Assembly: GCA_016278505.1 (NCBI GenBank)
Contig: JADQBQ010000016.1
Span: 1-64,000 of the forward strand
DNA length: 64,000 nt
Source of the DNA: Clostridiales bacterium
GTDB taxonomy: Bacteria > Bacillota > Desulfotomaculia > Desulfotomaculales > VENG01
Direction: 5' to 3'
Part shown: positions 52,301 to 61,219 of the stretch, in pieces
Layout of the letters: each line of letters begins with the position of its first letter
Numbering within the stretch: position 1 is the first letter of the stretch
Program-made: the position numbers and the translations under genes
The notes under the pieces: generated by a model
Databases searched by the model: none
Told to the model about the DNA's origin: nothing
What the model saw: the letters and a program-made list of their open reading frames with translations, nothing else

Positions 52301-53533
52301 TTAATCAATAACCATGGCATTACTGATCAAGTGATGAATATGCTTGATCTCTACATCCAGTTTATAGTGCTTCACTATATCATGTAATGCGTCGTAGCAG
52401 TTATGGCAGGGGCTAATCAGAACTTTTGCTCCGGTATTGGTAATCTGATCCGCCTTCATTTTACCCTTAGCCATCCTGACACGCTTTATTTCCTCGCCCA
52501 TGGCCAGTGCGCCACCACCACCACCGCAGCAGAAGTTATACTTGCGGTTTGGCCACATATCTCTGAAGTCTTCACAGACTGCATTCAAGCAGTACCTCTG
52601 GGGCTCTACGATACCTTCTTTACGTACAGCGTTACAAGGATCGTGCATGGTTACAGGGTCTGGGTTCTTGCTGGGATCTACCTTGATGAGACCCTTTTCC
52701 AGGATTTCCGCTTCCAACTCCGGGAACCAGGTTACATCGTAATTACCATCTTCCTCACTCAACCATACTTTACGTCCCCAACTTTGGGCCCGCATAGCAT
52801 GGCCGCACTCGGTAACTAGTATGCCTTTTTTGGGCTTAAGCCTTTTCACCTCTTCGGCAACCCTTTGCAGCATAATCTTGGAAGCTTCGTCATCACCATT
52901 AAACAGGCCGTAGTGGGTAGCATCCCACCAGTTACTGGGACTCGTCCAGCTTATGCCCGCATAATGCATGATTTTGCCGATACTTTGAATGTCCATGGGA
53001 TAATACTTAATTTCCCTGGGGTCCCAAAGAAAAACGTAGTCGGCACCCTCTACATCAACCGGGATCTTAATACTGGTATCGTCCATCTCCATCTGCAGCT
53101 CTTCTTCCATCCACTCCAGGGTATCCAGGTATTCCTCCTTGGTAATTTCCATCTGGTTACCTGTTTTTACCTGGGAGTCAACAATATCCTGCAGGAAGCC
53201 CGGAGACCTAAGCCCAAAGTTGCCACGGATAGCACGCACCATACCGGCAATGTCCACTTTCATCGGGCAGTCCATGGTACAGCGGGCACACTGGTTACAT
53301 ACCCAGATCATTGGGTCATTGAGCACATCTTCCTTCATGCCCAGCATTACTTTACGAATAAGTTTCCGCGGATCTGAGTTTTCAACTACATCGCTATAAG
53401 GGCATCCCGCCGTGCACATACCACAGGTTAGGCAGTTATTCAAGTCTGCAGGGTTCTTGTCCGTACACAGAGCAGAAACTACCTCATCCCTAAAACTTGG
53501 ATCTAATTTTTTAGCTTCAATTTCGTTGCTCAC
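52301..53533 (-). CDS. HdrD-like (heterodisulfide reductase-related) Fe-S protein: 2x[4Fe-4S] + CCG domain
   Basis: CLTCGMCTAGCPYS, CNQCARCTMDCPM, HDPCNAVRKEG, CCGGGGG, SPCHNC. Confidence 0.9.
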   Translation of the reverse strand: MSNEIEAKKLDPSFRDEVVSALCTDKNPADLNNCLTCGMCTAGCPYSDVVENSDPRKLIRKVMLGMKEDVLNDPMIWVCNQCARCTMDCPMKVDIAGMVRAIRGNFGLRSPGFLQDIVDSQVKTGNQMEITKEEYLDTLEWMEEELQMEMDDTSIKIPVDVEGADYVFLWDPREIKYYPMDIQSIGKIMHYAGISWTSPSNWWDATHYGLFNGDDEASKIMLQRVAEEVKRLKPKKGILVTECGHAMRAQSWGRKVWLSEEDGNYDVTWFPELEAEILEKGLIKVDPSKNPDPVTMHDPCNAVRKEGIVEPQRYCLNAVCEDFRDMWPNRKYNFCCGGGGGALAMGEEIKRVRMAKGKMKADQITNTGAKVLISPCHNCYDALHDIVKHYKLDVEIKHIHHLISNAMVID

Positions 53534-54016: not shown

Positions 54017-55246
54017 TTAATCAATTACCATTGCATTGCTTAACAGGTGGTGAATGTGTTTGATCTCCACATCCAACTCGTAGTGTTTAACAATGTCTGA
54101 CAACTGGTCAAAACAGTTATGGCAAGGACTGATCAAAACCTTAGCTCCCGTGTTGGTGATTTGGTCTGCCTTTAACTTACCTTTATCCATCCGGTAGCGT
54201 TTTATTTCTTCGCCCATGGCCAATGTGCCGCCGCCGCCTCCACAGCAGAGATTATACTTGCGGTTGGGCCACATCTCCCTGAAATCCTCACAAACATGGT
54301 TTAAAACATATCGTTGCTCTTCTACAATCCCCTCTTTACGCACGGCATTACAAGGATCGTGCATGGTCACAGGATCAGGATTTCTGCTGGGGTCCACCTT
54401 CACAAGACCCTTTTTAATTATCTCAGCCTCCAGCTGGGGCAGCCAAGTTACATCGTAATTCCCATCTTCAGGACTCAACCATACTTTACGCCCCCAACTT
54501 TGAGCCCTCATTGCGTGGCCGCACTCAGTGACCAACACACCTTTCTTGGGTTTAAGCCTTTTTACTTCTTCAGCTATTCTTTCCAGCATTATTTTAGAGT
54601 CTTTGTCATCACCGTTAAACAGGCCATAGTGGGTAGCATCCCACCAGTTACTGGGACTCGTCCAACTTATGCCCGCATAATGCATGATTTTGCCGATGCT
54701 TTGAATGTCCATGGGATAATACTTAATTTCCCTGGGGTCCCAGAGGAACATGTAGTCGGCTCCCTCTACATCAACCGGGATCTTAACGCTGGTATCGTCC
54801 AACTCCATCTGCAGCTCTTCTTCCATCCACTCCAGGGTATCCAGGTATTCCTCCTTGGTAATTTCCATCTGGTTACCTGTTTTTACCTGGGAGTCAACAA
54901 TATCCTGCAGGAAGCCCGGAGACCTAAGCCCAAAGTTGCCGCGGATGGTACGTACTAGACCGGCAACGTCTACTCCCATAGGACAATCCATGGTACACCG
55001 GGCACACTGAGTACACTGCCAGATAAATATATCATTAAGTACTTCTTCTTTCATACCCAACAAAACCTTGCGGATTAATTTTCGCGGGTCTGCATTCTCA
55101 TGCACCTCGTTGAAGGCGCAGCCTGCCGTACACATGCCGCATGTCAAGCAATTATAAAGATCCGCGGCATTCTTGTCCGTACAAAAATTGGCAACCACAT
55201 CTTCCCTAAAAGTGGGATCTAACTTCTTGGCTTCTATTTCACGCAC
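54017..55246 (-). CDS. HdrD-like Fe-S protein, paralog of 52301-53533
   Basis: Same motifs and length (409 vs 410 aa); long nucleotide-identical central tract. Confidence 0.9.
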   Translation of the reverse strand: MREIEAKKLDPTFREDVVANFCTDKNAADLYNCLTCGMCTAGCAFNEVHENADPRKLIRKVLLGMKEEVLNDIFIWQCTQCARCTMDCPMGVDVAGLVRTIRGNFGLRSPGFLQDIVDSQVKTGNQMEITKEEYLDTLEWMEEELQMELDDTSVKIPVDVEGADYMFLWDPREIKYYPMDIQSIGKIMHYAGISWTSPSNWWDATHYGLFNGDDKDSKIMLERIAEEVKRLKPKKGVLVTECGHAMRAQSWGRKVWLSPEDGNYDVTWLPQLEAEIIKKGLVKVDPSRNPDPVTMHDPCNAVRKEGIVEEQRYVLNHVCEDFREMWPNRKYNLCCGGGGGTLAMGEEIKRYRMDKGKLKADQITNTGAKVLISPCHNCFDQLSDIVKHYELDVEIKHIHHLLSNAMVID

Positions 55247-58374: not shown

Positions 58375-58602
58375 TTAGGTTCCTTTATCCTCCGCCTGGT
58401 AAGGACCTCCCGTGTAACCCCCGGGGCAATCATCTTTTACCATACTATACCAAAAGTCCAGTTCGCGCCTTTCATGCTCCGCCATATTTAAAATCATATT
58501 ACGCAAGCACTCAGTGGGAGCACCTTGGGCAATTCTATTGTACAATTCTATTTCTTGCTTTTCGCACTCTATAATCTGATTAACTAAATAGTGCCAGGCC
58601 AT
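58375..58602 (-). CDS. Small helical protein with acidic/Gly tail, possible spore-coat-type
   Basis: MAWHYLVNQIIECEKQEIELYNRIAQGAP...HERRELDFWYSMVKDDCPGGYTGG; RBS upstream. Confidence 0.6.
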   Translation of the reverse strand: MAWHYLVNQIIECEKQEIELYNRIAQGAPTECLRNMILNMAEHERRELDFWYSMVKDDCPGGYTGGPYQAEDKGT

Positions 58603-58632: not shown

Positions 58633-59055
58633 CTATTTATTATCCTTCTTATCTTCGTTTCCCTTGCCGGTTTTCTCATTTTCACCATCTTTTGCCTGGT
58701 ATGCTTCAGAGCAGCCCCCCGGACAGTCCGGACCATATCCCGGCCCGTAACCGTATCCGGGTCCATATTCGGGACTCGGGTTGTATCCAGGGCTGTATCC
58801 GGGTCCATAGCCGGGACCATAACCCGGTCCGCCTCCGGGACAAGGACCAGAGAAATCAGCACCATCATAGTAGGATGCATATACTGTATTCCAAAAACCT
58901 GCCTCACCGGCCTCTTCAACAATTTTCCCCAAAACTTCTTGGCGCATTGCTGCACTGGGAAGCTGCTCAGCCAATTGGGCCATCAATGCTATTTCCCGCA
59001 GTTCCAGTTGCATAGCCGTCTTGACCATTCGCAACCACTGTTCATGCATAATCAT
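58633..59055 (-). CDS. Small helical protein with Gly-Pro-Gly-Tyr repeat tail, possible spore-coat-type
   Basis: Helical N-terminus like 58375-58602, then GPGYGPGYGPGYSPGYNPSPEYGPGYGYGPGYGPDCPGG. Confidence 0.65.
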   Translation of the reverse strand: MIMHEQWLRMVKTAMQLELREIALMAQLAEQLPSAAMRQEVLGKIVEEAGEAGFWNTVYASYYDGADFSGPCPGGGPGYGPGYGPGYSPGYNPSPEYGPGYGYGPGYGPDCPGGCSEAYQAKDGENEKTGKGNEDKKDNK

Positions 59056-59156
59056 TCCTCCCTATGTTTTAATGGCATATTATGCAATTTAAGTAATAAA
59101 TGTTACATTTTACCTGGGTAACCTTTGACCGTTGTATATGCATAAAAACAAGAAAA

Positions 59157-59184
59157 ACGCGCTAAATACTTCCCTTAGCGCGCT
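59157..59184 (-). terminator. Rho-independent terminator (minus strand)
   Basis: Minus strand GCGCGCTAA ... TTAGCGCG-TTTTTC. Confidence 0.75.
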
Positions 59185-59220
59185 TCAGTACTTCCTTCCT
59201 TTCCTAAAAGTGGAACATAA

Positions 59221-59252
59221 AGAAACCCCCTTTCAAAGAAAGAGGGTTTCAA
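59221..59252 (-). terminator. Terminator-like hairpin at the 3' end of the candidate ncRNA (minus strand)
   Basis: Minus strand GAAACCCTCTTT-CTTTG-AAAGGGGGTTTC-TTTATG. Confidence 0.65.
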
Positions 59253-59680
59253 AGTGAGCTCACAATGACCTACGCTACAGCCACTACGAATACCTGCATA
59301 GCCCACGACAACCTTTCGGCTGCCATAGACCATTACGATACCCGCAATAGCCTTTGCTTGACTACCATGGATATCTAATGAGCCTGCAGCAATCTCCCGA
59401 CCACTACAAACCCATAATCCCGGACAACAAGGGATTATTCGACACCCATGATAATCTTAGCTCGACCAATACATATCCCTTACGACCATATTGCAATCCT
59501 TGGACCGCAATATAGCCTGCCGGAACATGCACTGATCTGCCCTCCGGCTAATACCGAGCCCAATGACCCGATATTAACCTTCGGCCGGCTGCCACAGAGC
59601 CTTACGACCCTGTAACAGTCTGGGCTCGGCCATTGCGAACCCGACGCTACTATTATGGCCCCACTGCGGAAAAATATAAG
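59221..59680 (-). ncRNA. Candidate structured non-coding RNA of about 430-460 nt with degenerate repeats and multiple hairpins
   Basis: No ORF of 60 aa or more on either strand; repeated motif GGT(A/-)TCGTARTGG on the minus strand; local stems ATATTGC/GCAATAT, AATCCC/GGGATT, GCCGGA/TCCGGC, GAGCCCA/TGGGCTC; tandem minus-strand terminators. Confidence 0.45.
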
Positions 59681-59899
59681 TAAAATTTAAATCCATTTTA
59701 TTCCATTAAACGAATGTGTGATAGTAAACTGCTAAAAATTCGACATACCCTGTAAAAATGTTGCTTTCTGGGATCCCTACCTCCTACAGGGTGTCAAGTA
59801 TACCCGAGAAGTAATAGAAAAGGTCTAGAACTATTTGAACTACAACCGCAAAGAATATAAAATAAATAACAAATGAAATAAATAAGGGAGGCAATTACG

Positions 59900-61219
59900 A
59901 TTAGTACTTCAACAGAAGACGTCTACAGTCTAGTGAAAGAACGGGGAATTGAGTTTATCCGTCTCCAGTTTACAGACATCTTCGGCATAATGAAAAGCAT
60001 GACAATTATGAGCGATGAGCTGGACAAGGCATTTGCCGGCGAGTTAATGTTTGATGGTTCTTCCATTGACGGCTTTGCCCGCATTGAGGAATCCGACCAG
60101 TGTGTAGTTCCCGACCCCGCAACCTTTGAAGTAATGCCCTGGCGACCCAGGGAAGAAGGTGTGGCCCGCATGATTTGCGACATATATACGCCGGACGGTA
60201 CACCCTTTGCAGGATGCCCGCGTCATGCACTAAAAAGAGCCATCAAAGAAGCAGAAGATATGGGTTATACCTTAAACATCGGCCCGGAAGGGGAATTTTT
60301 CCTGTTCTATACTGATGAGAAAGGACACCCCACCTTCGACATCCACGACACAGCCGGATATTTTGACCTGGCACCCGTGGATATGGGAGAAGACGCTCGC
60401 AGAGACATTATTCTGACCCTTAAAAAAATGGGATTTAAAATAGAGGCCTCACACCACGAGGTGGCACCAGGCCAACATGAGATTGATTTTAAATACGATG
60501 AAGCCCTGATTACGGCTGATAACTGGGTGACATTCAGGGACGTAGTAAAGAACGTGGCCAAGCAATATAATCTTTATGCCACCTTTATGCCTAAACCCTT
60601 TTCCGGTGAAAACGGCAATGCTATGCACTGTAACCAATCACTGTTTACGGAAGACACCAACGCCTTTTGTAACCCGGATAACCAGGAAGGACTAAGCGAC
60701 ATAGCTCGGTATTATATTGGCGGGCTTTTGCAGCACTCCAGAGGCATGGCTGCCATTACCAACCCCATTGTTAACAGCTACAAACGGCTGAGGCCGGGGT
60801 ACGAAGCCCCTATACATGTAGCCTGGTCTACTTCCAATCGCAGCACCTTGATTAGAATCCCCGCCTCCAGGGGCAATTCCACCAGGATAGAACTACGTAA
60901 TCCTGACCCTACAGCAAACCCTTATCTGGTTTTTGCGCTGATGTTACGGGCAGGTTTAGAAGGTATAAAAAATAAAATAACTCCTCCGGAGGCCATAAAC
61001 GGTAATCTTTACAACATGCCTGATTTAGCCCAGGAAATCCCCATGTTTCCGCGTGACTTGCAGGAAGCCATAGATGAAATGAAGGAAGATCCCCTGGTCA
61101 AAGAAACACTGGGAGATCATATTATGAGCCGCTATATAGACGCTAAACAAAAGGAATGGGACGATTACGCCGAGAGTGTTCATAATTGGGAGATAAGGCG
61201 TTACCTGGATAAGTTTTAA
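59900..61219 (+). CDS. glnA: Glutamine synthetase type I
   Basis: ERGIEFIRLQFTDIFG, MFDGSSIDGFARIEESD, NPIVNSYKRLRPGYEAP; likely start is ATT at 59900 after GGGAGG (or GTG at 59933). Confidence 0.95.
   Translation: MSTSTEDVYSLVKERGIEFIRLQFTDIFGIMKSMTIMSDELDKAFAGELMFDGSSIDGFARIEESDQCVVPDPATFEVMPWRPREEGVARMICDIYTPDGTPFAGCPRHALKRAIKEAEDMGYTLNIGPEGEFFLFYTDEKGHPTFDIHDTAGYFDLAPVDMGEDARRDIILTLKKMGFKIEASHHEVAPGQHEIDFKYDEALITADNWVTFRDVVKNVAKQYNLYATFMPKPFSGENGNAMHCNQSLFTEDTNAFCNPDNQEGLSDIARYYIGGLLQHSRGMAAITNPIVNSYKRLRPGYEAPIHVAWSTSNRSTLIRIPASRGNSTRIELRNPDPTANPYLVFALMLRAGLEGIKNKITPPEAINGNLYNMPDLAQEIPMFPRDLQEAIDEMKEDPLVKETLGDHIMSRYIDAKQKEWDDYAESVHNWEIRRYLDKF

Follow-up and report, generated by a model that had tools for sequence, protein, structure and literature searches.

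On the minus strand of the window, the 64,000-nucleotide stretch of Clostridiales DNA analysed here, we identified a gene for a conserved structured RNA of about 424 nt (59222–59645, terminator included). Our analysis establishes its structure and conservation at the RNA level, its independence of neighbouring genes and a shared promoter motif. With moderate confidence, we interpret it as a trans-acting structural RNA gene of spore-formers that is transcribed in the forespore under sigma-F/sigma-G and likely plays an architectural role.

The RNA region is flanked by a glutamine synthetase gene (59933–61219, plus strand, Pfam match) and, on its other side, by a small Gly/Tyr/Pro-rich gene (58633–59055, minus strand). 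The product of the latter, for which Pfam gives no match, is helical in its N-terminal part, ends in a tail of the PGYGPGYGPGYS type and is possibly a spore-coat protein; another small gene (58375–58602, minus strand) has only sub-threshold similarity to rubrerythrin/Coat F. Elsewhere in the window, two closely similar tandem ORFs (52301–53533 and 54017–55246, minus strand), cysteine-rich and heterodisulfide-reductase-like, are apparently a duplication. A first, sequence-only reading had described about 400 bp between the coat-like genes and glnA as devoid of ORFs yet not random, and it was right on both counts. The ORF list of the region contains no credible ORF in 59221–59680, and the minus strand of this interval folds at −241 kcal/mol as compared to −148±6 kcal/mol for dinucleotide shuffles (z −15.9). 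The plus strand reaches a z of only −4.8, an asymmetry which places the signal at the RNA level, where many G-U pairs are used. When trimmed to the inferred transcript (59645–59222, minus strand), the minimum free energy is −237 kcal/mol (z −17.4). The start near 59645 is inferred from the promoter position and is not exact; the terminator ends near 59222. A decayed coding gene could be ruled out, because there is no credible ORF and copy lengths vary freely (364–457 nt).

Is this structure conserved? In 100 relatives, a DNA search found full-length matches (64–80% identity) in most genomes, several copies being present in some of them (two in tandem in G093), and an iterated profile search retrieved 88 full-length copies of 376–431 nt. 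Among the named hosts are Pelotomaculum, Desulfotomaculum, Desulfoscipio, Desulfotruncus, Desulfallas, Desulforudis and Carboxydocella; Sporotomaculum gave a partial match only. Base covariation was scored with a G-test and average-product correction, first in a class alignment of 79 non-redundant sequences (71% mean identity), where all of the 10 top-scoring column pairs, out of 78,210, belong to the consensus fold as base pairs, as do 44 of the first 50. In a broad alignment, whose 120 sequences (63% mean identity) extend to distant classes, every one of the 70 strongest signals among 78,606 column pairs is a base pair of a single structure, and 75 base pairs score above the best non-pair. 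RNAalifold detects two-sided changes in 105 of 144 pairs. An independent count gives 97.4% standard pairs and 739 two-sided cells, as compared to 201±15 in shuffles, and none of 500 shuffles reached any covariation measure. When the partners are slid, pairing falls from 97% in the consensus to 31–41%; the consensus, having been built from these very sequences, is favoured over the slid versions, yet not to the observed degree. Compensatory changes beyond the controls, the criterion for a conserved structured RNA, are thus present. The covarying stems whose absence would have refuted the sequence-only reading of a structured RNA were found in overwhelming number across homologs, all within one conserved fold.

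The fold of the window copy is regular, with main helices of 13–16 bp containing 4–7 G-U pairs each under one closing stem (all positions on the minus strand). This outer stem, P1, pairs 59628–59642 with 59256–59270 (canonical pairs in 99%) and encloses two hairpins, P2 (59587–59620) and P3 (59546–59579, 15 bp), each with a wobble motif adjoining its loop; all three are supported by the fold and by covariation. The layout is completed by three homologous two-tier arms, each about 31 bp long: P4/P5 (59464–59537; P4 59537–59522/59479–59464, P5 59517–59503/59498–59484), P6/P7 (59360–59456; P6 59456–59441/59375–59360, P7 59413–59399/59394–59380) and P8/P9 (59279–59352; P8 59352–59337/59294–59279, P9 59333–59318/59313–59298). 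The second arm contains a variable insert (59414–59438), here an 8-bp hairpin, which differs in length and sequence between homologs. The P9 loop is C-GAAA-G in 126 of 146 sequences, as it is GAAA here, and the P7 loop is of GNRA type in most sequences. An intrinsic terminator, a 13-bp hairpin and then a T-rich stretch, closes the unit (59222–59250).

Two features of the arms bear on the origin of the RNA: (i) the upper arms P5, P7 and P9 resemble each other in sequence beyond shuffles; and (ii) R1, a covariance model of 124 positions built on one domain (the first arm, P4/P5, and P3), also recognises the 3′ half of these RNAs with E around 1e-7. Judging from these sequence likenesses, the RNA probably arose by internal duplication. 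Six helices (P1, P2, P3, P5, P7 and P9) moreover share a G•U–N–U•G element, in which two wobbles surround one Watson-Crick pair, and its individual wobble pairs are conserved in 88–97% of sequences. The retention of wobble instead of Watson-Crick pairs at set positions suggests a reader, which could be a protein, a metal ion or a docking loop. Conserved unpaired adenosines are also present, and no conserved unpaired stretch exceeds a few nucleotides.

This architecture accounts for much of what had been noticed in the bare sequence. The degenerate minus-strand repeat (GGTnnCGTAATGG type) exists, but rather than a tandem array it reflects homologous, wobble-bearing helices together with the intervening junctions. 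The ATATTGC-N12-GCAATAT hairpin is real and corresponds to helix P5, and the AATCCC/GGGATT hairpin does form in the window copy, but within the variable insert, and is specific to the window. By contrast, neither the GCCGGA/TCCGGC pair nor the outer GAGCCCA/TGGGCTC pair that had been proposed is part of the conserved fold, the real outer stem being P1. GTAGCGT(C/A)GG does occur at both ends, its 5′ copy overlapping the promoter and start region and its 3′ copy lying inside the RNA; the two do not pair with each other. As to the two tandem terminator-like hairpins, the first is the terminator of the RNA, but the second falls outside the conserved unit: at 59155–59185 (minus strand), AAACGCGCTAA/TTAGCGCGCTT form a hairpin that precedes T residues, between the RNA terminator and the next gene. 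A tandem-repeat or DNA-binding array is ruled out by the strand-asymmetric folding and the covarying copies. An array of protein-binding elements at the RNA level is plausible because six helices bear the same conserved wobble motif, and remains unproven.

The RNA is widespread. With R1, it was detected in 84 of the 113 genomes examined from the order; in a sample of 399 genomes drawn from the whole phylum, 125 were positive. Of 60 further loci, 55 came from outside the class, and almost every one of the 60 matches the RNA along its entire length. Exact-pattern matches in contigs labelled 'Burkholderia', 'Acidiferrales' and 'Cytophagales' were rejected as chance 19-mers without homology to the profile. 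The genome of the window itself has one full copy and one 3′ remnant adjoining ileS. This remnant (L002 1490–1561; contig C52:293975–294035) retains about 49 nt of the RNA 3′ end and the terminator just downstream of ileS. In 12 relatives, the copy near ileS is a full one, which suggests that a copy was lost at this site and survived at another. Other variants were observed. The sole copy of G041 (L122, about 310–500) keeps the promoter, P1, P8/P9 and the terminator with P2–P7 deleted, and is either a decaying copy or the smallest functional core; G021 (L317) has a shortened version of 364 nt, and of the G018 copy (L318) the profile recognises no more than the 5′ part.

Does the RNA belong to its neighbours? 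In the class, it is found next to ileS and spoIVA (both convergent), downstream of a spoVT-like gene on the same strand, next to thiC, mgsA or recJ, and in many single settings (neighbour names were assigned from sequence, without a family search); in G090 and G095, the RNA directly follows a SASP gene of the same strand. In distant classes, the neighbours are unrelated and occur in all orientations. No neighbouring gene co-occurs with the RNA throughout, and proximity to glnA or to Gly/Tyr-rich coat-like genes, raised earlier as a possible signature of homologs, is not conserved across copies. A glnA or coat-gene leader is therefore ruled out. Most of the 88 copies precede a terminator-like hairpin whose sequence differs between copies. 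The minus-strand RNA is an independent gene between its two neighbours, with its own promoter and terminator; together with the lack of a conserved neighbour, these fulfil the definition of an autonomous ncRNA gene. Action in trans is itself an inference: because the copies occupy unrelated intergenic sites, the RNA probably acts in trans. We consider it practically untenable that the region is instead a cis element (coat-gene or glnA leader), a decayed gene, a DNA-level repeat or a mobile element. The repeats and hairpins, and the multiple copies in some genomes, might have invited such a view, which is contradicted by the strand asymmetry, the conserved G-U pairs and two-sided changes, the unrelated neighbours in all orientations and the RNA's own terminator; searches of plasmid and phage collections moreover gave no match to the RNA.

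When is the RNA made? Immediately upstream of nearly all 88 copies, we found a two-box motif, (G/T)nATAAT and, after about 14 nt, GGnCATAATA. In the window, its −35 region is TTACTTATATTT (59672–59683, minus strand) and its −10 region GGGGCCATAATAGT (59649–59662, minus strand). In Bacillus, the sigma-F consensus is GYATA-N15-GGNNANANTR and the sigma-G consensus GHATR-N17/18-CATNHTA; as far as a sequence motif can tell, the RNA promoter fits this sigma-F/sigma-G type. In C. difficile, the sigma-F and sigma-G consensus sequences overlap, and several SASP genes and spoVT have mixed-type promoters (PMC7438776). A matrix trained on the single class scored above the 95% level of shuffled sequences in 95% of the 60 further loci (55 from other classes). 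The same matrix placed 21 of 29 SASP upstream regions above the 95% level of 454 ordinary gene upstream regions (p = 6e-16), so that a sigma-F/G-type promoter is common to the RNA and to known forespore (SASP) genes. In the 64-kb window, the RNA promoter is the best match of the matrix, with the caveat that it is among the 88 training sequences. In 29 of 88 copies (2.2 expected), a TACCA element is located no more than 22 nt from the −35 box; it may be the binding site of a regulator, perhaps a forespore one. Transcription in the forespore is inferred from the promoter; there are no expression data.

The distribution of the RNA is consistent with a link to sporulation. Outside the class, SpoIVA is encoded by 98 of the 100 RNA-positive genomes that were tested; those without it are 75% and 61% complete. 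If the comparison is restricted to genomes with a completeness of at least 90% and a contamination of at most 5%, SpoIVA occurs in 90 of 90 RNA-positive and 44 of 55 RNA-negative genomes (p = 1.2e-5, without correction for phylogeny, which partly confounds the association). RNA-positive genomes are thus demonstrably those of spore-formers. Three genomes of the class that are at least 90% complete gave no SASP match (G041, G048 and G056); two of them have no RNA and G041 has only its reduced copy. Conversely, several complete SASP-positive genomes, including most of genus g13, have no detectable copy, showing that the widespread RNA can be lost and is not essential to sporulation in general. 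It could be argued that the RNA is vegetative, made under sigma-A or a stress sigma factor, and that the promoter resemblance is coincidental, since the −10 box CATAAT resembles TATAAT and expression data are lacking. We regard this as very doubtful: no TTGACA-like −35 box is present, the −35 position is conserved as (G/T)nATAAT, and both the selection of SASP promoters by the same matrix and the spore-forming hosts speak against it.

A forespore promoter would also suit a regulatory sRNA that pairs with mRNAs and is merely stabilised by its structure. The model here is Bvs196 of Bacillus velezensis, which is expressed in the forespore under sigma-F/G, has its own terminator, contacts mRNAs and affects spore resistance (PMC9147052); Bvs196 and CsfG are intergenic ncRNAs of Bacillus, like our RNA in position and, as inferred for it, independently transcribed and forespore-specific under sigma-F/sigma-G. 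The promoter kind and the autonomous unit are indeed as in Bvs196 (PMC9147052). Bvs196, however, is a 294-nt RNA of about −82 kcal/mol at one fixed locus, hinT-ecsA, in Bacillus (PMC9147052), as opposed to about 400 nt, −237 kcal/mol (about −0.56 kcal/mol per nt) and many loci here. Our RNA is almost wholly paired, with the 75 pairs that covary above every non-pair, and offers almost no long conserved single-stranded stretch, which makes mRNA pairing less likely; we judge it rather improbable.

What could the RNA do instead? In the trans-acting structural RNA that we favour, forespore sigma-F/sigma-G polymerase would transcribe the gene up to its own terminator, and the transcript would fold into the closing stem, the two hairpins and the three arms. 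The wobble elements, GNRA loops and unpaired adenosines may then provide regular docking for several protein copies or for the arms themselves, and the outcome would be a stable ribonucleoprotein or a compact RNA particle in the spore core. The idea of a scaffold, whether a multivalent RNP scaffold or a compact RNA particle, stems from the six helices with one conserved wobble motif, the loose adenosines and the GNRA loops. It is speculative: no protein partner has been identified, and the wobble motif may be there merely for folding or for metal binding. Bolder still, and held only tentatively, is the possibility of an ancient, phylum-wide RNA particle of the spore core, a structural non-coding component of the dormant endospore, made only in the developing spore and using the recurring wobble pairs of its three arms as a docking code.

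Alternatively, the RNA could assemble with itself alone into a cage or filament, like GOLLD, ROOL and OLE, its GNRA loops and wobble receptors packing the arms. The ornate multi-arm fold, the GNRA loops at P7 and P9 and the conserved unpaired adenosines would all agree with this, as would the variable loop, which ROOL and GOLLD likewise have within a fold that is rigid elsewhere. On the other hand, neither pseudoknots nor kissing loops appear among the top 70 covarying pairs, the RNA is smaller than GOLLD, ROOL and OLE, and there are no oligomerisation data, so that we view such an assembly as unlikely, if worth keeping in mind. CsrB/RsmZ and 6S RNAs titrate a protein through repeated recognition elements or long helices, and in a decoy of this kind the wobble helices would be sites for a double-stranded-RNA-binding regulator. 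Six near-identical motif copies are what such a decoy would display. CsrB motifs, however, are GGA in loops and vary in number, whereas the element here is repeated inside helices in a nearly fixed layout, without any Rfam match. The fixed number and strict order of the arms across the phylum suggest a defined architecture rather than a loose array, and no partner is known; a decoy thus seems distinctly unlikely.

That the RNA belongs to no recognised class, as the sequence-only reading had stated, was upheld by Rfam 15. At gathering score, the whole window yielded only tRNAs; in the RNA region, nothing rose above gathering score even when hits with E≤10 were admitted; and neither 18 full-length homologs nor one partial homolog matched any RNA family, OLE, ROOL, GOLLD, raiA and 6S included. 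In the literature, limited to open-licence papers, we found no description of the RNA. Its broad kinds, the large ornate ncRNA and the forespore ncRNA, are already known. Like OLE, ROOL and GOLLD (PMC12286853), it has hundreds of nucleotides, a conserved multi-arm fold, a variable insert and no coding capacity; unlike them, it has three homologous arms, a repeated wobble motif and a forespore-type promoter, and matches nothing in Rfam. The raiA motif (ModT) is likewise a conserved, structured, trans-acting RNA of Bacillota, and loss of the raiA RNA reduces sporulation (PMC11706538). The raiA RNA, however, is abundant in exponential growth (PMC11706538), as opposed to the forespore-type promoter here, and the copies tested lack an Rfam raiA match. 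The family, the three-arm architecture with its repeated wobble code and their combination are new as far as our tools show, homology to CsfG and Bvs196 not having been compared.

Few structured RNAs of several hundred nucleotides are widespread, and 6S, OLE, raiA/ModT, ROOL and GOLLD each started a field of study. The RNA described here spans many families of spore-formers, including the cultured Carboxydocella, Desulfoscipio and Desulfotruncus, and explains a recurrent, conserved and seemingly 'empty' intergenic region of these genomes. Its repeated G•U–N–U•G element is a concrete recognition code to probe. To our knowledge, no RNA is known as a structural component of endospores; if expression in the forespore holds, a dedicated RNA component of the endospore would become directly testable.
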